Shown in pieces: positions 6,755 to 22,368 of a stretch of 64,000 nt of DNA. Made by a program: the position numbers and the translations under genes. The DNA lies in assembly GCF_000023225.1 (NCBI RefSeq), contig NC_013173.1, positions 1,614,501 through 1,678,500 of the forward strand. The letters are read 5' to 3'. The DNA is from Desulfomicrobium baculatum DSM 4028 (lineage in GTDB: Bacteria > Desulfobacterota > Desulfovibrionia > Desulfovibrionales > Desulfomicrobiaceae). Position 1 is the first letter of the stretch. Every line of letters begins with the position of its first letter. Below the pieces are notes generated by a model. It ran no database searches and was not told the DNA's origin. It saw only the letters and a list, made by a program, of their open reading frames with translations.

Positions 6755-6928
6755 ATGACGACATCGATCTCCTGCCCAGCAGACTTAAGATGCGGGTCAT
6801 TTCTTGTCACGAAAGACAGAATAACAAATCAGAAATCACAGGCCGTTGCAAAAGAGTTGGATGAAGACATTACTATTGGCGGTATGATAGTTGATTTTGG
6901 TCCTTCCGGAATTGCTGTGAGTAAATGA
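6755..6928 (+). CDS. Small unrecognised ORF, possibly a gene fragment
   Basis: A 57-codon frame starts at the ATG at 6755. It reads like ordinary protein in its second half (AVAKELDEDITIGGMIVDF) and its last codons are formed by the internal transposon end. There is no convincing ribosome-binding site. It may be the remnant of a gene disrupted when the original insertion sequence entered, or chance. I do not recognise a family. Confidence 0.3.
   Translation: MTTSISCPADLRCGSFLVTKDRITNQKSQAVAKELDEDITIGGMIVDFGPSGIAVSK
6899..6926 (+). repeat. Internal ISL3-type terminal repeat
   Basis: The sequence begins GGTCCTTCCGGAA and matches the right end of the unit (inverted) at 21 of 28 positions, so it is probably the original left end of the insertion sequence. 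The 8 bases outside it (TTGATTTT) do not match those outside the right end (AAAAATGA), so the last transposition did not use this end. Confidence 0.75.
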
Positions 6929-6960
6929 CTTGCTTAGGAGTCTTCTCACGGAGGACGCCG

Positions 6961-8196
6961 ATGAGAGACACCGAACTTTACGCACAGATTCTTGGAGTCA
7001 AAGCGCCTTGGTTTGTTGACAAGGTTGATCTGAAAATAGCCGAGAATAGTGTTGATATTTGGCTAGACCATGGTCCAGGCGAGCGCTGGCCATGCCCAGA
7101 ATGCGGCAAACTTCTGCCCTGCCGGGACCATGTAGGCGAGCGTGTCTGGCGTCACCTGGATACATGTCAATTCAAGACGTTACTTCATGCCCGAGTTCCG
7201 CGAGTGGAATGCCCGGAACATGGAGTGCACCAGGTGCTTGTACCCTGGGCTGAACCACGGTCTCGCTTCACATTGCTCATGGAGCGCTGGATTATAGATG
7301 TGCTCACGGAGTGCGCGACAGTTGATGGTTTTCGGCGCTTGCTGAAACTCACATGGGATGAGGTTTGGGGAGTAATGGAGCGGGCTGTTCGACGAGGTCT
7401 TTCGCGCAAGGAGGCCCAGCCGATTCACTATCTCGGAGTGAACGAGAAAGCATTCCGCAAAGGGCACTCCTACATGACCATAGTCTGCGACCTTATGCGC
7501 AGTACGGTCGAGCATGTTTCCGAAGAGCGGAAGAAGAGCAGCCTGGAGGGATATTACCTCAGCCTCTCACCCGGCCAACTGGATTCCATACGGGCCATCG
7601 CAATGGATATGTGGGAGCCATATTTCACGGCGACCATGGCGCACGTGCCGGATGCCGGAGCCAAAATCGTCCACGACAGATTTCATGTCATGAAGCACGT
7701 GAACGAAGCCGTGGATAAAGTGCGCAAGCAAGAACATAAGGCCCTGATGGCTCAGGGCGACGAAACCCTCAAAGGGACCAAGTATCTTTGGCTGTTTCGC
7801 CCTGAGAACTTGCCTGCCCAGCATCAGCCGACATTCGACGTCCTTAAGGCCAGCGATCTCAATGTGGCCAAGGCATGGGCCATGAAAGAGAATTTGCAGT
7901 CACTGTGGGACTATATGTCTCCTGGATGGGGACGCAGATTCTTCAAGCGTTGGATAAAATGGATTGATCGTTCCGGCTTGGAACCAATGAAGCGGGTTGG
8001 ACAGTTACTTTCGCGGCATCTTGAAAATATTCTGACTTTCTGCCGCCACCGGATCACCAACGGCGTCGCCGAAGGGTTGAACAGCAAAATCATGAGCATC
8101 AAGCGAAAGGCGTGTGGGTACAGCAACAAGGATCATTTCAAGACGGCGATCTACTTTTTCTGCGGTGGACTTGATCTGTACCCAAGGTCAGTTTGA
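6961..8196 (+). CDS. ISL3-family transposase
   Basis: The product is about 411 residues. The N-terminal zinc-finger segment (CPECGK, later VECPEHG) is followed by the ISL3 DDE region. NEKAFRKGHSYMTIVCDL stands where the family normally has a DEKAF motif. Then come an AIAMDMWEPY segment with the second Asp, the conserved DRFHVMKHVNEAVD, and ITNGVAEGLNSKIMSIKR with the catalytic Glu. The first acidic residue of the triad therefore appears changed from Asp to Asn, which by family knowledge could reduce or abolish activity. The start at 6961 has GGAGGA 6 bases upstream; a longer frame from 6925 lacks one. It lies inside the 4.0-kb unit and ends 3 bases before the right terminal repeat. Confidence 0.93.
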   Translation: MRDTELYAQILGVKAPWFVDKVDLKIAENSVDIWLDHGPGERWPCPECGKLLPCRDHVGERVWRHLDTCQFKTLLHARVPRVECPEHGVHQVLVPWAEPRSRFTLLMERWIIDVLTECATVDGFRRLLKLTWDEVWGVMERAVRRGLSRKEAQPIHYLGVNEKAFRKGHSYMTIVCDLMRSTVEHVSEERKKSSLEGYYLSLSPGQLDSIRAIAMDMWEPYFTATMAHVPDAGAKIVHDRFHVMKHVNEAVDKVRKQEHKALMAQGDETLKGTKYLWLFRPENLPAQHQPTFDVLKASDLNVAKAWAMKENLQSLWDYMSPGWGRRFFKRWIKWIDRSGLEPMKRVGQLLSRHLENILTFCRHRITNGVAEGLNSKIMSIKRKACGYSNKDHFKTAIYFFCGGLDLYPRSV

Positions 8197-8199
8197 ACA

Positions 8200-8227
8200 C
8201 GTTACCCACATATTTTCCGGAAGGACC
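8200..8227 (-). repeat. Right terminal inverted repeat of the ISL3 unit
   Basis: Read on the minus strand from 8227 it begins GGTCCTTCCGGAAAATATGT and matches the left end at 4217-4244 at 27 of 28 positions. It begins right after the transposase stop codon. Confidence 0.88.
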
Positions 8228-8235
8228 AAAAATGA
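8228..8235. repeat. Target-site duplication, right copy
   Basis: This exact second copy of AAAAATGA overlaps the foot of the hairpin at 8232-8270, which shows that the element inserted at the base of a terminator-like structure. Confidence 0.88.
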
Positions 8236-8294: not shown

Positions 8295-9806
8295 TCATTC
8301 GACCCAATCAAAAGTCCTGGTTACGGCCTTTTGCCAACCTGCGAACAACTCCCTGCGTTTCTCTTCCTCCATATCCGGAACCCAGCGTTTGTCCTCTTCC
8401 CAGTTGTTGTAGAGCTCCTCGCGACCGGACCAGAAGCCCGAGGCGATGCCTGCGGCGTAGGCCGCGCCCAGGCAGGTGGTTTCGGCCACCTTGGGCCGGA
8501 CCACGGGTACGTTCAGGATGTCCGCCTGGAACTGCATGAGCAGTTCGTTGAAGACCATGCCGCCATCGGCCTTGAGGGTTTTCAGGTCCACGCCGGAGTC
8601 CTTGTTCATGGCCAGGACGATGTCCTTGGTCTGGTAGGCTGTGGCCTCAAGCACGGCCCGGGCGAAATGGTTGCGGTTGATGTAGCGGGTCAGGCCGACC
8701 ATGACGCCGCGCGCGTCGGGCCGCCAGTAGGGGGCGTAAAGACCGGAAAAGGCCGGGACAATGTACATGCCGCCCGTATCCTCAACTTTCCGGGCCAGAG
8801 TCTCTATCTCCGGGGCCGACGAGAACATCTGCAGGTTGTCCCTGAGCCACTGCACCAGGGCCCCGGCAATGGCGATGGAGCCTTCAAGACAGTAGGACGG
8901 CTTGCGGCCGCTGAACTGATAGGCCAGCGTGGTGATCAGTCCGTGTTTTGACTGGATGGGCTCGTGACCCGTGTGCATGAGCAGGAAGCAACCCGTGCCG
9001 TAGGTGTTCTTGGCTTCGCCGGGCGCGAAGCAGGTCTGCCCCACAAGGGCGGCCTGCTGGTCGCCCACGGCTCCGCAGACCGGCACGCGCGCGCCGATGG
9101 GGCCGTCCTCGCTGGTGGGACCCCAGGTCTCGCTGTCGGAGGAGGGCACAATGCGCGGCAGACCCTGCAGCGGAATGTCCATGATCTTCAGGATTTCTTC
9201 GTCCCAGCTCAGCGTTTTGAGGTCCATGAGCATGGTCCGGCTGGCGTTGGTCACGTCGGTCACATGCGCGCCGCCTTTGGGACCGCCGGTCAGCCACCAG
9301 ATGATCCAGGTCTCGATGGTGCCGAAGAGGGCGTTGCCTTTATCTGCGGCCGCGCGGGCCTCGGGCACGTTGTCCAGAATCCAGCGCATCTTGGGTCCGG
9401 AAAAATAGGTTGCCACGGGCAGTCCGGTCACGAGGCGGAAACGGTCCTGACCGCCGTCGGCCATGAGCTGCTTGCAGATTTCGTGAGTGCGGGTGCATTG
9501 CCAGACAATGGCGTTGTAGTAGGGCTTGCCCGTGAAGCGGTCCCAGACCACGGTGGTCTCGCGCTGGTTGGTGATGCCGATGGACGAGAGATCGGAGCCT
9601 CTGATCCCGGACTTGGCCAGCGCTCCCCGGATGACGTCCTGGGTGTTGTTCCAGATCTCCATGGGATCGTGTTCGACCCAGCCGGGTTTCGGATAAATCT
9701 GCTCATGCTCTTTTTGATCCATGCCGACGATGCGGCCGTGCTCGTCGAAAATGATGAAACGGCTGCTGGTGGTTCCCTGATCGACTGCTCCTACGTAGCG
9801 GGCCAT
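8295..9806 (-). CDS. glpK: Glycerol kinase
   Basis: This 503-residue protein phosphorylates glycerol to sn-glycerol 3-phosphate with ATP in the cytoplasm. It belongs to the FGGY family: the phosphate-binding DQGTTSSR lies at residues 8-15, ITNQRET and the [10 protein letters not shown] segment follow, then YGTGCF and the adenosine-binding [17 protein letters not shown] region. Length is normal. The start at 9806 is preceded by AAGGAGGAG. It is the last gene of a minus-strand operon with the glycerol-3-phosphate dehydrogenase genes, so kinase and dehydrogenase are made together. Control by GlpR is likely from the candidate operators at the operon head. Confidence 0.97.
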
Positions 9807-9843: not shown

Positions 9844-10680
9844 TCATGTGTTCTCAAACCACGAAGCGACGACATCGCCGGGTAGAATCCCGAGGTCGTC
9901 CGGATCCAGCCCCAGGGCCAGACCCAGAATCTGGGGGTAGGGGACGGCCGGTATGGTCCCAGGCCTTTTTGTATTCTCGGCCCCGAACTGCAACTGGCAA
10001 TACGTGCAGGCCGTGGCCAGCACATCCGCGCCGGACGCCTTGGCGCCGGCCAATTTCTTGGCCACCAGAAGATCCGCGATACCCTCGTCGCGGCCGCGCA
10101 GCGGATACCCGCAGCATTCCAGCCGCAGGTCCCAGGGCAGGGCAGCGGCTCCGGTGACGGCGATCAGCCGCTCGAAAAGCGTCGGCGCCAGAGGGTCGTC
10201 GAAATGGGTGATGTTTTCGGGACGCAAGGCATGGCATCCGTAATGGCAGGCAATTTTCAGATTCCGCAACGGACGGCTCACGGCGCCGGCCACGCTGGAC
10301 AGATTGTCGTCAAGTACCTGCAGCAGATGCCGGACACGGGTCGTAGCGGGAAAATCAAGCCCGTCCTCTTTCAGCATATTCTTCATGCGACACATGAGCT
10401 TTTCATCATGATCGACCTGATGCCGCGCCTGCTGGAAATTGCCGAAACAGCATTTGCATGGCGTCATCAGATCCAGGCCTCGATTTGCCGCCAGGGCGAG
10501 GTTGCGCAGGGCCGAATAGACGGATGCGTCCCGGCTCTCGTGGCGCACGGGGTAGCCGCAGCAGTTGAACTCGGGCTTGACCAGTTCCAGCCCGAGATGG
10601 GCGCAGACCGCCTCCACGCTTTTTCCGTACTCCGGCAGATGGTGGGCGATCTTGCAGCCCGGAAAATAGGCGTATTTCAT
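9844..10680 (-). CDS. HdrB-like CCG-domain protein of the glycerol-3-phosphate dehydrogenase
   Basis: The product is about 278 residues and has two cysteine-rich CCG domains. Visible cysteines are GCK, FNCCGYP and TPCKCC in the first half, then HYGCHAL, LECCGYP and ATACTYC in the second. This is the HdrB/GlpC C-terminal pattern that binds iron-sulfur clusters in heterodisulfide reductase and related enzymes. The start at 10680 overlaps the stop of the upstream membrane iron-sulfur protein (ATGA), so the two are translationally coupled. With GlpA and GlpB upstream, it probably replaces the C-terminal half of a classical GlpC and passes electrons from glycerol-3-phosphate towards the membrane quinone pool. 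A longer frame continuing to 11037 is out of register with the upstream gene. Confidence 0.88.
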
Positions 10681-12278
10681 GACCGGCCCTCTTTCTTGCG
10701 CAGGATTTCCGCGCCCAGTTGCCGCAGCTCGTACAGAATGTCGGCCACGGGCACGCCTTGGGGGCAGTGCTCCTGACATTTGTAGCAGGTGGTGCAGCTC
10801 CAGACCATGCGCGCGCCCAGGGTCTGGGCTTTGAGACCCATGCGCAAAAGGTTCATGATCTGCTGCGGGGCGAGGTCCAGATCGCGGGACGGGTCTTCGC
10901 TGACCGCGACCACGGGGCAGACCCCCGTACAGGTCGTGCACTGCACGCAGCCCCAGAAGGATTCGGCCCGGTCCGCAAGACCGGCCCCTGTGCTGCCGAT
11001 CCTGCCCGGATCGCGCGAGCCAAGCTCCCTGGACCATTCACCGGCCGTTCGCTTGCGGATTTCACCGTCAACCCCGGCCCGGCCCGCCTCGGTAAGCGCT
11101 TTCTTGGAGGCCATCCAGAGGTCCTGCAGATCGATGCCGGCGGAGCAGACCTCCGTGCAGCGCAGACATTCGGTGCAGATGTGACTTCCCTCCGTCAGAG
11201 AGGCTGTGCGGGCGGGCGAAAGCCTGCCGCCCAGATAGCGGCGCAGATCCGAGAGCTTGTCCATGGGCAGAATATCCGCGTTGCCCATGACCCTATGGAT
11301 CGGCGCGACGCTGCAATGCAGGCTGCATTGGCCGCAGCGGGTGCAGGCGTCCAGGCCCAGGCCGCGTGATAAGGGCGGCGTATCCGCACGGCTTTTCACG
11401 CGTCCGCCTCGCACAAGCAGGTTGGCTCCCGTCGCAACGGGGTGAAAGAACTTGCCCCAAGGCAGAAGCCCAAGGCCAAGAAAGGCGAGGCCGACGTGCA
11501 CATACCAGAACAGGTCGCGCCCCTGATCGGCGATATTCCAGGAAGCAGGCACAAGCGCGGTCATGGAGCGGGAAACAAAGGCCGAGGACGTGGGGGCGTG
11601 GCATCCGGCACAGTGATTCTCGTGCAGCTCGGCGCCAAGCTCCATCATTTCAGGGGCTGTCGGCATGAATTCCTTGAAACGCACGCCATTTTCCCTGGCC
11701 CAGTAGGCTTTGAGGGAGATCAGCTCGCCGGGTTCCTCCTCGACAAAATAATAGTCCGTCATGCGCGTGAAATCGCCGGCGGACATGATCTTGAATGATT
11801 CGAGAAAAAAACCGGAAAGGAGCAGGCCAAAAACCACCGCAAGGAGCGCCCAGTCTTGCGGTATGCTTACTTTTTTGAGTTTTGTGCAGCGATTCCAGAA
11901 AAGGAGTGCGAGGCCGAAAACGCTGAGCAGCCCGAAGAGATTGCGCAGAAATTGCCAGGGGTCGAGGGTTGGTTCGTACCCGGCGATGAGGGGACGGGTG
12001 ACGACCCCGTCCATGGCGTGCAGGACAAGAAGAGGAAGAAAGCCAAGCACCAGGAACATGTGCCCGCTCCAGCGAAGAAAACCCTGACGCAGGGTGCGGC
12101 GCAGGAAGACCAGATCGGCCAGTCCGCGCCAGACTGCGCGGAATGTGCCCTGGCGCGGTCCTCCGGGTCCCGGCTTTGCGACTGCTGATCCGCGCGTACG
12201 CCATCCGCGCACCCGCCAGAGGATGCCACCGACCGCGCTGATGCACGCAAGGGTGAGACCGATGGAAAAAAAGTCCAT
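10677..12278 (-). CDS. HdrC-like membrane iron-sulfur protein with a c-type haem motif
   Basis: This protein of about 533 residues has at least four predicted membrane helices in its first 300 residues. A single CAGCH haem-c attachment motif lies in a loop after the third helix (near residue 220), and C-terminal ferredoxin-like clusters follow (CTRCGQCSLHC, CTECLRCTEVC, CVQCTTCTGVCP, CTTCYKCQEHCP). This layout, a membrane anchor plus HdrC/GlpC N-terminal type clusters, suggests a quinone- or cytochrome-linked electron conduit. It is encoded between GlpB and the HdrB-like protein and overlaps the latter by 4 bases. GGAG stands before the start. Inferred role: electron acceptor of GlpAB, equivalent to the N-terminal part of GlpC but with an added periplasmic-facing haem. 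Confidence 0.85.
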   Translation of the reverse strand: MDFFSIGLTLACISAVGGILWRVRGWRTRGSAVAKPGPGGPRQGTFRAVWRGLADLVFLRRTLRQGFLRWSGHMFLVLGFLPLLVLHAMDGVVTRPLIAGYEPTLDPWQFLRNLFGLLSVFGLALLFWNRCTKLKKVSIPQDWALLAVVFGLLLSGFFLESFKIMSAGDFTRMTDYYFVEEEPGELISLKAYWARENGVRFKEFMPTAPEMMELGAELHENHCAGCHAPTSSAFVSRSMTALVPASWNIADQGRDLFWYVHVGLAFLGLGLLPWGKFFHPVATGANLLVRGGRVKSRADTPPLSRGLGLDACTRCGQCSLHCSVAPIHRVMGNADILPMDKLSDLRRYLGGRLSPARTASLTEGSHICTECLRCTEVCSAGIDLQDLWMASKKALTEAGRAGVDGEIRKRTAGEWSRELGSRDPGRIGSTGAGLADRAESFWGCVQCTTCTGVCPVVAVSEDPSRDLDLAPQQIMNLLRMGLKAQTLGARMVWSCTTCYKCQEHCPQGVPVADILYELRQLGAEILRKKEGRS

Positions 12279-12299: not shown

Positions 12300-13547
12300 T
12301 TACAAAGAGGCCACCGCCTTGTAGGCAGTGGCGATGGCCAGCCCGGCACCGCACTTCATGCGCATCCAGTCCTGATGGGCCAGGATCGCGCCCGCGGCAT
12401 GCAGGCGCGGGTGAAAGACCCGGCCTTGCGCGTTGAGCGGCCGCAAGGCCTCGTCGGTCTCGACCCCGGCCTGGTTGACCTCGTGTCCACGCGGATCGAA
12501 AAATTCGGGCCTGTGCCAGAGGCTGCGATCTTCGGGTTGGGTCACGGGCAGATCGAAGACCGCCTCCTGAATGCGATGACGGTCCGCCTTGAGGCCCTTG
12601 CCGAAAAAGCGGCCGCTGGCAAGGATGGCACTGCGCGCGAAAAGCTCCACGGATGTCGAACCGCTTCCGGCGGTAAAATGGAATCCCTCATCCGAACACA
12701 CCGCCCTTGTGATCAGCTTCTGCGTATAGGTACGCACTCCCAGGGTCGGCAGGCCCCGATCGAAGGCGGCGCGCAGCCGGGGCCCGGCGATGGAGGGGGG
12801 CAGGGTAGGGATCTCGAAGACCCGTTTGCCGAGCAATTCTTCCAGGTGCCGCAGCACGGCGGCGGTGTCGGTCATGCCCAGGATGGCCGGGAAGCCGACA
12901 TAATCGACGTCTCCGGCCAGCGGCGCGACGCTTATCGCCAGTTCGGCCCGGCGCGCCGGGTCGGCCATGCTCCAGGCCATGTGTTCGGGATACAGCTCCC
13001 CGCTCATGCCGGGAAATTTTATCCGCGCCACTTTCAGCTCCGGCCAGGAATCTTTCCGCACTTCCGCGATCTGTCTTGCGCTGAGACCCTTGAGGCCATG
13101 AAAATCGACGATCAGCGCGGGGGCCTTCGCTTCCCATGCCTCCACCCCGTTCCAGGCGGTGCAGGGCATGAGGTAGGTGGGCTTCATGGTCCCGGCGGAG
13201 GTCAAGGTCAGGGTGTTCTTCCCGGCGCGGCCCCGATAACAAAGCCCGTGTTCGCCCAGAAAAAGGGTGAATTCCTCCAGTGCCCGGCAAATCTCCGCGT
13301 CGCTCACCCGGCAGTAGGGGTGCGCCGGAAGATCACGGCGCAGGGCGGCCAGCGCGGCAAAGGGGTCCTCCCAGACTTTCTGCTCCGTGATGGGATGCAC
13401 GGCCAACAGGTCGATGAATCCGGTGCTGAAATCAATGCCGCCCGTGGCTCCTGTCTGGGCCACGGACAGGCCGCGCCTGGCGGCGAAAAGCGCCGCGGCC
13501 ATGCCGGCGAAGCCGGAGCCGATGACCATGACATCATATGTTTTCAT
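12300..13547 (-). CDS. glpB: Anaerobic glycerol-3-phosphate dehydrogenase subunit B
   Basis: The product is about 415 residues, with an N-terminal flavin-binding Rossmann motif VIGSGFAGMAAALFAARRG and a second nucleotide-binding region ending SAILASGRFFGKGL. Similarity to GlpB is recognisable through the FSTGFIDLL segment and the C-terminal GAGLAIATAYKA block. It is the small flavoprotein subunit that links GlpA to the iron-sulfur partner. Its ATG at 13547 overlaps the GlpA stop codon (ATGA), a coupling typical of glpAB operons. A longer frame starting at 13577 lies within glpA and is less likely. Confidence 0.93.
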   Translation of the reverse strand: MKTYDVMVIGSGFAGMAAALFAARRGLSVAQTGATGGIDFSTGFIDLLAVHPITEQKVWEDPFAALAALRRDLPAHPYCRVSDAEICRALEEFTLFLGEHGLCYRGRAGKNTLTLTSAGTMKPTYLMPCTAWNGVEAWEAKAPALIVDFHGLKGLSARQIAEVRKDSWPELKVARIKFPGMSGELYPEHMAWSMADPARRAELAISVAPLAGDVDYVGFPAILGMTDTAAVLRHLEELLGKRVFEIPTLPPSIAGPRLRAAFDRGLPTLGVRTYTQKLITRAVCSDEGFHFTAGSGSTSVELFARSAILASGRFFGKGLKADRHRIQEAVFDLPVTQPEDRSLWHRPEFFDPRGHEVNQAGVETDEALRPLNAQGRVFHPRLHAAGAILAHQDWMRMKCGAGLAIATAYKAVASL

Positions 13548-15163
13548 GGCTGCTCCTTGACGGCCGCGGCAGGGCATTTTTCACTCTCCTCGTCCCTGGT
13601 CGAAGGGGCGGGCCCGAACTCCAAGTCCATGGCCCCGCAATGCAGGGCCTCCTGCAAGTCGGCCTGCATGAGCGGCACGCCCCAGAGGATCGGCGAAAAG
13701 CCTCTCCAGCGGCGCTCGGTGAAGGTTTTCAGCTCCGCCAGCCCCTGCGTCCCGGTGGAAACCTCGCGGTCATAGAGGTGCCCGGTGATGCGCGGTCCGC
13801 AGAACCCGCCCTGGCACGGCCCCTTGCCGACCCGGCTGCGCATGCCGATGGCCTTGAGCATGGAACGGCCGCGCATGTCCTTGGCCTCGTCCACGATGGA
13901 ATCGATGACCCTGCGCGAAACCATCTCGCATTCGCACAGCACGATGTCGTCTTCGGTCCGGCTTTCGATCCAGCTTTTCGGGCCCCGGCCGGGCTCCGTC
14001 CACTTGCCCATGGTGGAGGGCGGGAGCGGCTCCGTGCGCGTCCGGCACTTCGCGGACACGCCGAGTTTCGCGCAGGCCAGATCCGCCGCTTTTTCGGCCA
14101 TGAGCCGATACGTGGTCAGCTTACCGCCGGTGATGGTCATAAAATTCGACACGCCCTCATCGGCGTGGTCGATGAGCGAGAAGCCACGGCTGACCGCGCG
14201 GTCGTCCCCGGCCGGGCCGAGGGAAACCAGGGGGCGGACTCCGGCGTAGGCGCGGATGAAGCGCGTGCGCTCCAGGATGGGCAGCATGTGGCGGGCGTCG
14301 TCGATAATGCGGTCTGTTTCCGCCACGCTGGGCCTGCATCCGTCGGGGGTTGGCACCCGGATGGAAGTGGTGCCGAGAATGGACACGGTGCCGCCGGGCA
14401 CAAGGATGTCCGCGTCCGAAGGCGGACGCAGCCGGTTGATGACCCGGGTGGCGATGCGGTCCTGGGTGATGATGAGGCTGCCCATGGAATAGAGTATGTT
14501 TATGTGCGCCCCGGCCAGGGCCGCGATCCGTCCTGCCCAGGCCCCCGAGGCGTTGATCACGAGTTCGGCTTCGATCAGGACCTCGGCGCCTGTGGTTATA
14601 TCCCGGCAGCGCACAAGGGTGACGCGTGCGTCCTGCACTTCCATGGACACGGCGGCGAGATTGCGGCGCACAAAGCACCCCAGGCTCAAGGCCTGGGCGA
14701 TGTTATCGAGGGAGAGCATGAACGGATCCACCGCGCCGTCCTGCACCGCAAAGGCGGCGATGAGATTCTCCGACAGGGCGGGTTCCATGGCGCGGGCCGT
14801 GCTCAATTCCAGTCCACGGCAGGGAACGCCGCTTTTGGCGCAAAGAGCGGAAAAATCAGAGGCATACTTTTCGTCGTCTCCGCGCACGGCCACAAAAAGC
14901 CCTCCGGTGTCCTCTATGCACTGCGGCGCGAGTCGGCGCAGGATGTCGCCTTCTTCCCTGCATTCGACCGCAGCCTCCACATCCGAGGCCACATAGCGCG
15001 CGCCGCTGTGCAAGAGGCCGTGGTTCCCGCCGGATGCGCCTGAATTGACGTCGCGCTGTTCGATCAGAAGCGCCTGCACCCCGCGCAGAGCGAGATCGCG
15101 CAGCAATCCCGCGCCGGTGACACCGGCACCGATGATGAGAACCCGGGTTGTAAGTATGGTCAT
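13544..15163 (-). CDS. glpA: Anaerobic glycerol-3-phosphate dehydrogenase subunit A
   Basis: This 539-residue protein oxidises sn-glycerol 3-phosphate to dihydroxyacetone phosphate with FAD. It opens with the dinucleotide-binding LIIGAGVTGAGLLRDLALRG, continues with the GlpA/GlpD signature around SGASGGNHGLLHSGARYV, and has the TITGGKLTTYRLMAE block. The C-terminus carries a BFD-like [2Fe-2S] segment (LCECEMVS and GKGPCQGGFC), characteristic of GlpA rather than aerobic GlpD. AAGGAT precedes the start. It is the first gene of the glpAB-hdrCB-glpK operon and diverges from glpR across 258 bases with candidate operators. Confidence 0.97.
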   Translation of the reverse strand: MTILTTRVLIIGAGVTGAGLLRDLALRGVQALLIEQRDVNSGASGGNHGLLHSGARYVASDVEAAVECREEGDILRRLAPQCIEDTGGLFVAVRGDDEKYASDFSALCAKSGVPCRGLELSTARAMEPALSENLIAAFAVQDGAVDPFMLSLDNIAQALSLGCFVRRNLAAVSMEVQDARVTLVRCRDITTGAEVLIEAELVINASGAWAGRIAALAGAHINILYSMGSLIITQDRIATRVINRLRPPSDADILVPGGTVSILGTTSIRVPTPDGCRPSVAETDRIIDDARHMLPILERTRFIRAYAGVRPLVSLGPAGDDRAVSRGFSLIDHADEGVSNFMTITGGKLTTYRLMAEKAADLACAKLGVSAKCRTRTEPLPPSTMGKWTEPGRGPKSWIESRTEDDIVLCECEMVSRRVIDSIVDEAKDMRGRSMLKAIGMRSRVGKGPCQGGFCGPRITGHLYDREVSTGTQGLAELKTFTERRWRGFSPILWGVPLMQADLQEALHCGAMDLEFGPAPSTRDEESEKCPAAAVKEQP

Positions 15164-15421: not shown

Positions 15422-16249
15422 ATGCATAACGCCCGCCCCGACAAAAGCGAAGGCCAGGACACGGGAGCCCGGCATGTCACGGTCCGTCAACGCCATGCCG
15501 AAATGATCCGCATGGTCCGGGAGACGGGTTTCGCCACCATCCAATCCCTGGCCGACCATTTCGGCATCACCCCGCAGTCCGTGCGCCGGGACATCAACAC
15601 CCTGAACGCCAAGGGCCTCGTGCAGCGCTATCACGGCGGGGCGGGGCCATGCCTGAGCACGGAGAACATGGACTACCTGGACCGAAAAGTGCTCTGCCTG
15701 GCCGAAAAGCGGGTCATCGGGCAGATGGTGGCCAGGGCCATCCCCAACAAGTCGTCGCTCTTCATCAACATCGGCACCACCACCGAAGAGGTGGCCCGGG
15801 CCCTGGGCGGACACAAGAACCTGCGAGTCATCACCAACAGCCTCAATGTGGCCTCCATCCTGACGGGAAACCCGGAGGTGGAGATTATCGTGGCCGGCGG
15901 CCTGATCCGGCATCATGACGGAGGCATCGTCGGCGAGGCGGCCATCGACTTCATCCGCCAGTTCAAGGTCGACTTCGGGATCATCGGCATCAGCGGCATC
16001 GACATGGATGGCACGCTGCTTGACTTCGACTACCGGGAAGTGCGCGCGGCCAGGGCCATCATGGAAAATTCCAGACAGGTCTTCCTGGTCACGGACCATA
16101 CCAAATTCGGTCGCAACGCCATGGTGCGCCTGGGCAACATCGAGGAAATCGACTCCCTGTTCACGGACAAGACGCCGCCGGCGAGCGTGCTTGAGCAGAT
16201 GAAACGCGGGAACGTGAAACTGCACGTCGATGAAGATTCGGAAATTTGA
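15422..16249 (+). CDS. glpR: DeoR-family repressor of glycerol genes
   Basis: The protein is about 275 residues. An N-terminal DeoR helix-turn-helix (TIQSLADHFGITPQSVRRDI, residues about 38-57) is followed by the sugar-phosphate-sensing domain with the DeoR hallmarks NIGTTTEEVARAL, VITNSLNVA, VAGGLIR and DFGIIGISGID. Family knowledge: GlpR is released from DNA by glycerol 3-phosphate. It sits between the dehydrogenase operon and the transporter operon, both of which carry TTTTCGTTTG-like sites. GGAG precedes the start. The extra 20 residues before the HTH are longer than usual for E. coli GlpR. Confidence 0.93.
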   Translation: MHNARPDKSEGQDTGARHVTVRQRHAEMIRMVRETGFATIQSLADHFGITPQSVRRDINTLNAKGLVQRYHGGAGPCLSTENMDYLDRKVLCLAEKRVIGQMVARAIPNKSSLFINIGTTTEEVARALGGHKNLRVITNSLNVASILTGNPEVEIIVAGGLIRHHDGGIVGEAAIDFIRQFKVDFGIIGISGIDMDGTLLDFDYREVRAARAIMENSRQVFLVTDHTKFGRNAMVRLGNIEEIDSLFTDKTPPASVLEQMKRGNVKLHVDEDSEI

Positions 16250-16388: not shown

Positions 16389-17492
<1,104 letters not shown>

Positions 17493-17503
17493 AGGATTTT
17501 TTC

Positions 17504-18583
17504 ATGGCCAAAATCGAACTTGAGAACATCGCCCACAGCTACCGGTCCAAACCCGCCAGCGATGACGATTTCGCAATCAAGAAAGTGCAGACGGTCTGGG
17601 AAGACGGGGGCGCTTACGCGCTGCTGGGTTCCAGCGGGTGCGGCAAGACCACCATGCTCAACATCATCTCGGGCCTGTTGACCCCAAGCCAGGGGCGTGT
17701 GCTCTTCGACGGCAAGGACGTGACCAAATTGCCGCCGGAAAAACGCAACATCGCGCAGGTCTTTCAGTTCCCGGTGCTCTACGACACCATGACGGTTTTC
17801 GACAATCTGGCCTTTCCGCTGCGCAACCGCAAGGTGGAGGAGGGCGAGGTGCGCGCACGGGTGCATGAGATCGCGGAGATCCTGGACCTGAGCCCCTACC
17901 TGAACAAACGGGCCAGCGGCCTGGCCGCCGACGCCAAGCAGAAGATTTCCCTCGGCCGGGGACTGGTGCGAAAAGACGTGGCCGCCATTCTTTTTGACGA
18001 GCCCCTGACCGTCATCGACCCGCACCTCAAATGGCAGCTGCGCCGCAAATTGAAGGAAATCCACCAGCAATTCGGACTGACGCTCATCTACGTGACCCAC
18101 GATCAGACCGAAGCCATGACCTTTGCCGACAATATCGTCATCATGTACGATGGCGCGCTCCTGCAGATCGGCTCGCCGGACGAGCTCTTTGAGGACCCGG
18201 CGCATACCTTTGTCGGGTATTTCATCGGCAGTCCGGGCATGAATCTCTTGCCGTGCACGATTGAGGGAAACCAGGCCGTGCTCGATTGCGGCAGCATCCC
18301 CCTTGATCCGGCCGTAGCCGCCAAGGCGGGACAGGGCGAATTTAAGATCGGCATCCGCCCGCTGTACCTCGAACTGTCGGACGCGCCCCGTGACGGGGCC
18401 GTGGCCGGACGAATCGTCTCTGTCGAGTTCGAAGGCAGCAGCCGCATCGTGACCGTGGAGTCGGGCTCATCCAAGCTCAAGGTCAGGGTCCCCGAAGGGC
18501 GGCCCATTCCGGCCGACAGCTGCTGGGTTGTCTTTCCGCCGCAGCGGACCAAGCTTTTTCGCGACCAGTATCTGGTCAAGTAG
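17504..18583 (+). CDS. glpT: Glycerol ABC transporter ATP-binding protein GlpT
   Basis: The product is about 359 residues, the second ATPase of the glycerol importer. Walker A is canonical (GSSGCGKTT), and Walker B (AAILFDEPLTVID) and the switch His (VTHDQTEA) are present. The ABC signature reads ASGLAADAKQKISLGRGL instead of LSGGQ, so one of the two composite ATP sites of a GlpS/GlpT heterodimer is expected to be weak. A C-terminal TOBE domain follows. The start at 17504 has AAGGA upstream. The longer frame from 17459 overlaps glpS and is not needed. Confidence 0.9.
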   Translation: MAKIELENIAHSYRSKPASDDDFAIKKVQTVWEDGGAYALLGSSGCGKTTMLNIISGLLTPSQGRVLFDGKDVTKLPPEKRNIAQVFQFPVLYDTMTVFDNLAFPLRNRKVEEGEVRARVHEIAEILDLSPYLNKRASGLAADAKQKISLGRGLVRKDVAAILFDEPLTVIDPHLKWQLRRKLKEIHQQFGLTLIYVTHDQTEAMTFADNIVIMYDGALLQIGSPDELFEDPAHTFVGYFIGSPGMNLLPCTIEGNQAVLDCGSIPLDPAVAAKAGQGEFKIGIRPLYLELSDAPRDGAVAGRIVSVEFEGSSRIVTVESGSSKLKVRVPEGRPIPADSCWVVFPPQRTKLFRDQYLVK

Positions 18584-18592
18584 GAGGTGGGC

Positions 18593-19458
<866 letters not shown>

Positions 19459-19462
<4 letters not shown>

Positions 19463-20256
19463 GAAAACGTCATTTCGTCCTGATTTTCTATCTCACGCTC
19501 CTGCTGCTGCCCATTTACTGGATGCTGAACATGTCTCTGCGCACCAACGCGGACATCATGCGCTCCTTCGAGCTATTCCCGAGTTCCATGACCCTGGGCA
19601 ATTATGCCAAGATTTTCTCGGATCCGTCCTGGTATTCGGGTTACATCAACACCATGATCTATGTCAGCATCAATACGGTCATCTCGCTGGTCACGGCGCT
19701 GCCCGCCGCCTACGCCTTCTCGCGCTTCCGTTTCATCGGCGACAAGCACGTCTTCTTCTGGCTGCTGACCAACCGCATGGCTCCTCCGGCCGTCTTTCTG
19801 CTGCCGTTCTTCCAGCTCTATTCGACCTTCAATCTGATCGATACGCACATCGCTGTGGCCCTGGCGCACTGCCTCTTCAACGTGCCGCTGGCGGTCTGGA
19901 TTCTGGAAGGGTTCATGTCCGGAGTGCCGCGCGAGATCGACGAGACGGCTTTCATCGACGGGTACAGCTTCCCGCGTTTCTTCCTGGCCGTCTTCATCCC
20001 GCTCATCCGTGCCGGCATCGGCGTGACCGCGTTCTTCTGCTTCATGTTCAGCTGGGTCGAGCTGCTTCTGGCCCGTACCCTGACCACCACCGTGGCCAAA
20101 CCCATCGCCGCGACCATGACCCGCACGGTCAGCGCCTCGGGCCTGGACTGGGGCCTCCTGGCAGCGGCCGGCATCCTGACCATCGTGCCCGGCGCTCTGG
20201 TCATCTGGTTTGTACGCAACCATCTGGCCAAGGGCTTCGCCCTGGGCCGGGTTTAG
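19459..20256 (+). CDS. glpQ: Glycerol ABC transporter permease GlpQ
   Basis: This 265-residue MalG/UgpE-like permease has six hydrophobic segments. The first is FVLIFYLTLLLLPIYWMLN, and the EAA loop reads REIDETAFIDGYSFPRFFLAVFIPL. It forms the membrane channel with GlpP. Translation starts at an ATG overlapping the glpP stop (ATGA). The symbol follows the transporter nomenclature; it is not the glycerophosphodiester phosphodiesterase also called GlpQ. Confidence 0.9.
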
Positions 20257-20266
20257 GAGGGCAGCC

Positions 20267-20545
20267 ATGAATATCGCCTGGATGGCCTGGACGCCTGTCA
20301 CGGCAGGATTTTTCATTTTCATCGTGCTCATGCTCATCAGCATGACCATCTGGCAGATCATCTCTCCGAGCATTGCCCGCCAGGGATTTCTGCCCTTGGT
20401 CACCACCCGTGGGGACCGTCTGTTCATAAGCCTTCTGGGTAGCGCATACATCCATCTGGCCTGGCTTGGCCTGACGGAACTGGCTGTCTGGATCGCTACC
20501 ATGATATCCGTGCTTTTTCTTGTCGCCGTCATGCGCTGGGGTTGA
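20267..20545 (+). CDS. DUF2160 small integral membrane protein of the glycerol transporter
   Basis: This 92-residue protein has two or three hydrophobic helices (TAGFFIFIVLMLISMTIWQII; LAVWIATMISVLFLVAVM). It matches the small DUF2160 protein regularly found between glpQ and glpV in glycerol ABC operons. Its function is not established; it is presumably an accessory part of the transporter. GGAGG stands before the ATG at 20267. Confidence 0.85.
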   Translation: MNIAWMAWTPVTAGFFIFIVLMLISMTIWQIISPSIARQGFLPLVTTRGDRLFISLLGSAYIHLAWLGLTELAVWIATMISVLFLVAVMRWG

Positions 20546-20628
20546 GATCAGGACACCAGCGCGGTGACAGGAGCAGGGCGGAAGCGGCGTTTTGGGGTTT
20601 ATTGTAATAACCGCAAATGGAGGTCCGT

Positions 20629-22368
<1,740 letters not shown>

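Follow-up and report, generated by a model that had tools for sequence, protein, structure and literature searches.

In the glycerol-3-phosphate operon of Desulfomicrobium baculatum DSM 4028, two adjoining genes, hdrC* and hdrB, probably replace GlpC with a membrane-bound module of two subunits that carries electrons from GlpAB through a haem c to periplasmic cytochromes and/or menaquinone. We put the probability of this reading at roughly 60%; within it, we infer the complex with GlpAB, the periplasmic side of the haem, the direction of flow and the final acceptor. The gene cluster itself and the kind of module are already known. As far as the open literature shows, novelty lies in the haem c site and the protein architecture, in the modular distribution and in the finding that the glp-linked proteins come from a single clade. 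The open-access literature searched contained no earlier account of a haem c site with glpAB or of the distribution of the module. A central question in the energy metabolism of sulfate reducers, still open, is how electrons from cytoplasmic oxidations cross the membrane. As a defined and recurrent unit of two genes whose haem c site is invariant, the module is a candidate carrier from a soluble flavoenzyme to the periplasm, and the pair would be one answer to the question of the GlpAB partner where GlpC is missing.

The glp operon and its genes

The window, the whole stretch of 64,000 nucleotides analysed here, comprises positions 1614501-1678500 of a closed genome of 3,942,657 bases. The gene order on its minus strand is glpA-glpB-hdrC*-hdrB-glpK, with overlaps or short gaps between the genes, including an ATGA overlap of the hdrC* stop with the hdrB start, and none of the five genes is truncated or disrupted (Table 1). 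GlpB exceeds its NCBIfam cut-off, and GlpA exceeds that of PRK11101 while falling 1 bit short of that of TIGR03377. The operon is most likely the cluster Dbac_1434-Dbac_1446 treated in PMC11505543 (2024), where heterodisulfide reductase-like genes are drawn in the homologous clusters of that study's strain and of other sulfate reducers. An ISL3-family insertion element (window 6895-8231), with 17-base inverted repeats at 6895-6911 and 8215-8231, adjoins the 3' end of glpK.

Table 1. Features of the glp region, with window coordinates and the basis of each call
Feature	Position	Strand	Basis
glpA	13544..15163	(-)	PRK11101 461 bits, cut-off 425; TIGR03377 551.7 bits, cut-off 552.8
glpB	12300..13577	(-)	start probably at 13547; NF003725 658.9 bits, cut-off 345
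hdrC*	10677..12278	(-)	ORF; Pfam Fer4_8, weak Nitrate_red_gam; fold match to EtfD/NarI
CAGCH haem c attachment site, residues 223-227	11598..11612	(-)	CxxCH in 55/55 relatives; predicted periplasmic loop
First dicluster [4Fe-4S] domain, Cys 312-378	11145..11345	(-)	conserved Cys
Second dicluster [4Fe-4S] domain, Cys 444-505	10764..10949	(-)	invariant Cys
hdrB	9844..10680	(-)	278 aa; Pfam CCG x2; conserved ligands; alignment with solved HdrB
glpK, glycerol kinase	8295..9806	(-)	ORF; homologues at the equivalent place in relatives
glpR-like repressor, divergent	15422..16249	(+)	ORF; glpR named in the PMC11505543 cluster
ABC transporter genes (2 ATPases, 2 permeases, binding protein), glpSTPQUV type	16389..22368	(+)	ORFs; cluster in PMC11505543

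Architecture of the pair and its relation to GlpC

The hdrC* protein (533 aa) combines a NarI-type membrane domain, a haem c loop and two dicluster Fe-S domains. Five membrane segments were found by hydropathy, and the loop of residues 161-253, which holds CAGCH, was assigned to the periplasm by the positive-inside rule. The alignment comprised 57 relatives, two of which are Fe-S-only subunits whose loci have a separate gene for the membrane part. All 55 relatives with a membrane domain share C223, C226 and H227, while both x positions vary, and a chance CxxCH was therefore ruled out. As in a c-type cytochrome, the motif lies on the exported side, going by the predicted side of the loop, and haem attachment is putative. 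His 73, 87, 261 and 279 of the membrane domain are kept in at least 53 rows of the alignment. The ligands of the first dicluster domain are Cys 312/315/318/322 and 368/371/374/378, and those of the second, which matches HdrC, are Cys 444/447/450/454 and 495/498/501/505; these 16 cysteines are predicted to bind four [4Fe-4S] clusters.

The AF2 model of hdrC* is confident in the membrane half and of low confidence in the Fe-S half (17 sequences). Its best structural match is Mycobacterium smegmatis EtfD (PDB 9ojn; Z 19.0, rmsd 3.8, 295 residues), followed by NarI with a Z of about 11. As in EtfD, EMO and HdrF, a five-helix NarI-type membrane domain is followed by an Fe-S domain; the CCG domains, which in that group lie on the same polypeptide, are encoded here by the separate hdrB. 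The NCBIfam search reached no curated cut-off for the hdrC*-hdrB family.

HdrB has two CCG domains with complete sets of non-cubane cluster ligands, C9/40/41/75/78 and C149/189/190/225/228, which are conserved in the glp-linked set. Both CX(n)CCG...CxxC sets include their bridging cysteines, C78 and C228, the role of which was taken from the HdrB/EtfD comparison in PMC13083937 and from alignment to a solved HdrB. The two residues are present in 18 of 18 glp-linked HdrBs, and C228 is Ser or Thr in 12 of the remaining, non-glp-linked ones. The protein matches the solved HdrB structure of HdrABC with an E value of 4e-46, and TIGR03288 (HdrB), although its score of 174.9 bits is below the cut-off of 345, is still the best model for it. 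In the HdrBs of the hdrC*-linked family, residues 75-78 read CKCC, with an extra invariant Cys77 that is missing from the aligned archaeal HdrBs and from the compared GlpCs. For annotation, the signature would be a NarI-type domain with CxxCH and four [4Fe-4S] motifs, with an HdrB of the CKCC type behind it.

E. coli-type GlpC, the third component of the anaerobic glycerol-3-phosphate dehydrogenase, resembles the pair in that its gene comes after glpB and its product has Fe-S and CCG domains. Two [4Fe-4S] and two CCG motifs lie together in this single protein, which is of the soluble type and has no membrane domain or haem; in half of the compared GlpCs the first CCG set is without Cys75. With E. 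coli GlpC as query, no true GlpC was found in the D. baculatum genome, where the two best matches score below the GlpC cut-offs and are better explained as LdhH-type proteins. Judged by gene order, hdrC* and hdrB stand at the place of GlpC in a conserved operon. Against TIGR03379 and PRK11168, the GlpC models (cut-offs 279.9 and 278 bits), hdrC* scores 39.5 and 54.0 bits and HdrB 12.6 and 41.2 bits, which places neither in the GlpC family. HdrB, nearest to the HdrB of HdrABC, misses the GlpC cut-off by a wide margin, and the [4Fe-4S] motifs of hdrC* are twice as many as in GlpC and are joined to an EtfD/NarI-type membrane domain; the pair is therefore not a GlpC split in two.

These results bear on a preliminary description made from the letters of this DNA alone. 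It had reported an HdrB-like gene and an HdrC-like gene with a haem site in the glp operon, and the pair was recovered at exactly its coordinates, glpA and glpB lying upstream and glpK downstream. The CAGCH site that it placed on the membrane protein was borne out by the conservation of the motif. Its label HdrC-like is right for an Fe-S protein and understates a protein with two dicluster domains and a NarI-type membrane domain. Its proposal that GlpC had been replaced by a split version stands as far as the replacement goes, with GlpC not found and the pair at its place, and fails as regards the split, which the family scores, cluster count and membrane domain rule out.

Distribution and phylogeny of the module

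Scanning of 84,980 species' genomes with peptide patterns gave 16 relatives, apparently in sulfate-reducer and related deltaproteobacterial genomes, going by their labels. The five-gene order of the window recurs in 12 of the 16, as well as in L062 and L063; of the other four, two are cut off where the contig ends, one lacks a neighbouring glpK and one has no glp link. Within the Desulfovibrionales, hdrC* is present in 43 of 297 genomes, and glpB lies directly upstream of it in 39 of these 43, as counted from gene coordinates read by eye. The remaining four comprise one genome with glpB and hdrC* on different contigs and three without glpB. The same adjacency was found in MAGs of other families. 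Of 395 genomes sampled across the phylum, 54 match hdrC* in whole or in part (E <= 1e-20) and 74 have GlpB, and E. coli-type GlpC comes after most of the GlpB loci examined.

The glp-linked hdrC* proteins form a single clade with a support of 99. A GlpA tree of 54 rows contained 27 GlpC-linked sequences, 16 hdrCB-linked sequences and 11 with neither or another partner; the hdrCB-linked GlpAs group with partnerless relatives in a clade that contains none of the GlpC-linked ones. Going by the hdrC* clade and this tree, the partner choice of GlpAB tracks phylogeny. In one genome (G134), glpK directly follows glpAB and the hdrC*-hdrB pair is encoded elsewhere; this unlinked pair branches as the sister of the glp clade, and the GlpA falls among the hdrCB-linked GlpAs. 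Pairwise identities of GlpA and GlpB correlate with those of hdrC* at 0.93-0.95 (GlpK, 0.85). This points towards an association of GlpAB with hdrC* and was not used as proof, owing to confounding by species relatedness.

The pair is not exclusive to GlpAB. Many genomes carry it alone, including those of family f17 without a GlpB match in the phylum-sample list, and in others HdrA-like genes and more Fe-S genes come after it. The pair would therefore be a general module rather than a dedicated set of GlpAB subunits, and from its gene neighbourhoods it is predicted to be an Hdr module that spans the membrane and that one GlpAB lineage has adopted. In two genomes, G045 (L100 4436-9144) and G081 (L101), the membrane part is a separate protein of 716 aa with b561, multihaem c and NarI-like regions, and it adjoins a 272-aa multihaem cytochrome, an Fe-S-only HdrC and HdrB. 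This variant and the pairs beside HdrA-like genes suggest that the module generally serves to connect an Hdr-type acceptor in the cytoplasm with the membrane and with a periplasmic haem c.

Conversely, GlpAB of the window lineage does not always have the pair nearby. Neither GlpC nor the pair is adjacent at L210, L212, L218, L219 and L220; among the Desulfovibrionales, GlpAB is accompanied by glpK only in L210 and L212 and by an ABC transporter only in L218-L220, and in others by no recognisable partner. The pair is therefore no universal requirement in this lineage, unless it is encoded elsewhere. The preliminary description had treated the pair as the GlpAB partner, had proposed a survey of the operon order and had held that GlpAB functioning without the pair would count against it. 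The survey upheld the order, in the counts given above. The partnership is favoured by the conserved operon and the conduit-like build of the pair and fails as a GlpAB-specific one. Many GlpABs of the lineage have neither an adjacent pair nor GlpC.

Proposed electron route and known counterparts

In the route that we propose, GlpAB would oxidise glycerol-3-phosphate to dihydroxyacetone phosphate in the cytoplasm, and its flavins would pass electrons to the non-cubane clusters of HdrB and from there to the four [4Fe-4S] clusters of hdrC*. These would reduce the NarI/EtfD-type membrane domain, with one or two haems b, from which electrons would cross the membrane to the haem c on the periplasmic face. 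They would leave from haem c to the periplasmic c-type cytochrome pool and/or through menaquinone reduced at the haem b site. A periplasmic exit is somewhat favoured because the haem c site is strictly conserved, and cytochrome c3-type proteins are encoded in the genome. Electron transfer from glycerol-3-phosphate to a low-potential cytochrome c3 would be somewhat uphill, but the membrane potential would aid the outward movement of electrons. A narrower proposal is that GlpAB-HdrCB is a trans-membrane glycerol-3-phosphate:cytochrome c oxidoreductase bypassing the quinone pool, and that this is one among the uses of a modular HdrCB conduit able to connect different cytoplasmic flavoproteins, GlpAB or HdrA-type, with periplasmic cytochromes; we advance it tentatively, at less than even odds. 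Points against the broader, two-exit reading are the pairs without GlpAB, the GlpABs without the pair, the reduction of quinone by EtfD and EMO, and the reported failure of the strain to grow on glycerol.

The closest counterparts are EtfD of mycobacteria (9ojn) and EMO of Syntrophus, both ETF:menaquinone oxidoreductases. Like the window pair, they have [4Fe-4S] and CCG parts behind a NarI-type membrane domain with five helices and haem b, and they take electrons from a cytoplasmic flavoprotein. Unlike them, the pair has a separate CCG protein, four rather than two [4Fe-4S] motifs and an added haem c site; its HdrB retains both bridging cysteines, which EtfD has lost, and its operon partner is GlpAB instead of ETF. 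In the main alternative, the same complex would be an ordinary glycerol-3-phosphate:menaquinone oxidoreductase that, like EtfD and EMO, releases electrons at the haem b/quinone site, the haem c serving only to tune, to stabilise or to give a side exit. EtfD, the best fold match, binds menaquinone near its haem b, quinone reduction resting on map density and an assay (PMC13083937). EMO reduces methylmenaquinone. Oxidation of glycerol-3-phosphate (about -190 mV) by menaquinone is downhill and reduction of cytochrome c3 not clearly so, which we count in favour of this alternative. However, the CxxCH is invariant across very different gene contexts, and the family variant fused to multihaem c suggests a periplasmic haem on the main path. 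We regard a plain menaquinone oxidoreductase as a serious but not the favoured possibility.

Other known systems share parts of the arrangement. The passages of PMC2702500 (2009) on Desulfobacterium autotrophicum HRM2 place the membrane-bound HdrF1/HdrF2 beside glpAB and propose electron transfer from GlpAB to HdrF. These, too, are membrane-bound HdrCB-like proteins encoded adjoining glpAB; compared by description only, HdrF differs in carrying the CCG part fused, and those passages mention no haem c. The window HdrB has full ligand sets like the HdrB of HdrABC, whereas hdrC* differs from HdrC by its membrane domain, its haem c and one more dicluster domain, and the window operon contains no HdrA. 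QmoC of the same genome resembles hdrC* in joining an HdrC-type Fe-S domain to a NarI-type membrane domain but has the opposite domain order, two [4Fe-4S] motifs and no CxxCH; hdrC* scores 66.6 bits against the QmoC model NF038018 (cut-off 300) and falls outside that family. In HotSeep-1, an HdrA-associated haem c/CCG protein (AMM42179.1-AMM42180.1) was proposed to exchange electrons with cytochromes c (PMC10553843). It resembles the window pair as a CCG-containing, haem c-binding Hdr-type system; compared by description only, it differs in being HdrA-associated, in having haem c and CCG in one protein and in not being described with glpAB.

It is improbable that the operon is silent or decaying in this strain and has no present function. 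D. baculatum reportedly does not grow on glycerol, which PMC11505543 ties to a mobile element 'in front of' glpK, while P. methanolicus does grow. In the window, the ISL3 element adjoining glpK lies downstream of the intact gene (stop 8295) and not in its promoter; the five genes are full length with conserved cofactor residues, and glycerol does support growth of a relative that has a homologous cluster. Less probable still is a pair from another pathway merely co-located with glpAB, for instance connecting periplasmic cytochromes with HdrA or with a thiol/disulfide partner (DsrC-like) through an intact HdrB site, since the tight glpB-to-glpK conservation over several families, the single glp-linked clade and the absence of a detected GlpC in the genome weigh against it, even though pairs occur without GlpAB and beside HdrA-like genes, GlpABs occur without the pair, and glp-linked HdrBs retain the C78 and C228 of catalytic HdrB that EtfD lost.

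A different arrangement was seen in G083 (L139 4079-12754), where glpA-glpB is followed by a 1039-aa HdrA-like protein, an HdrD/GlpC-like protein and glpK pieces; it is possibly another alternative to GlpC.
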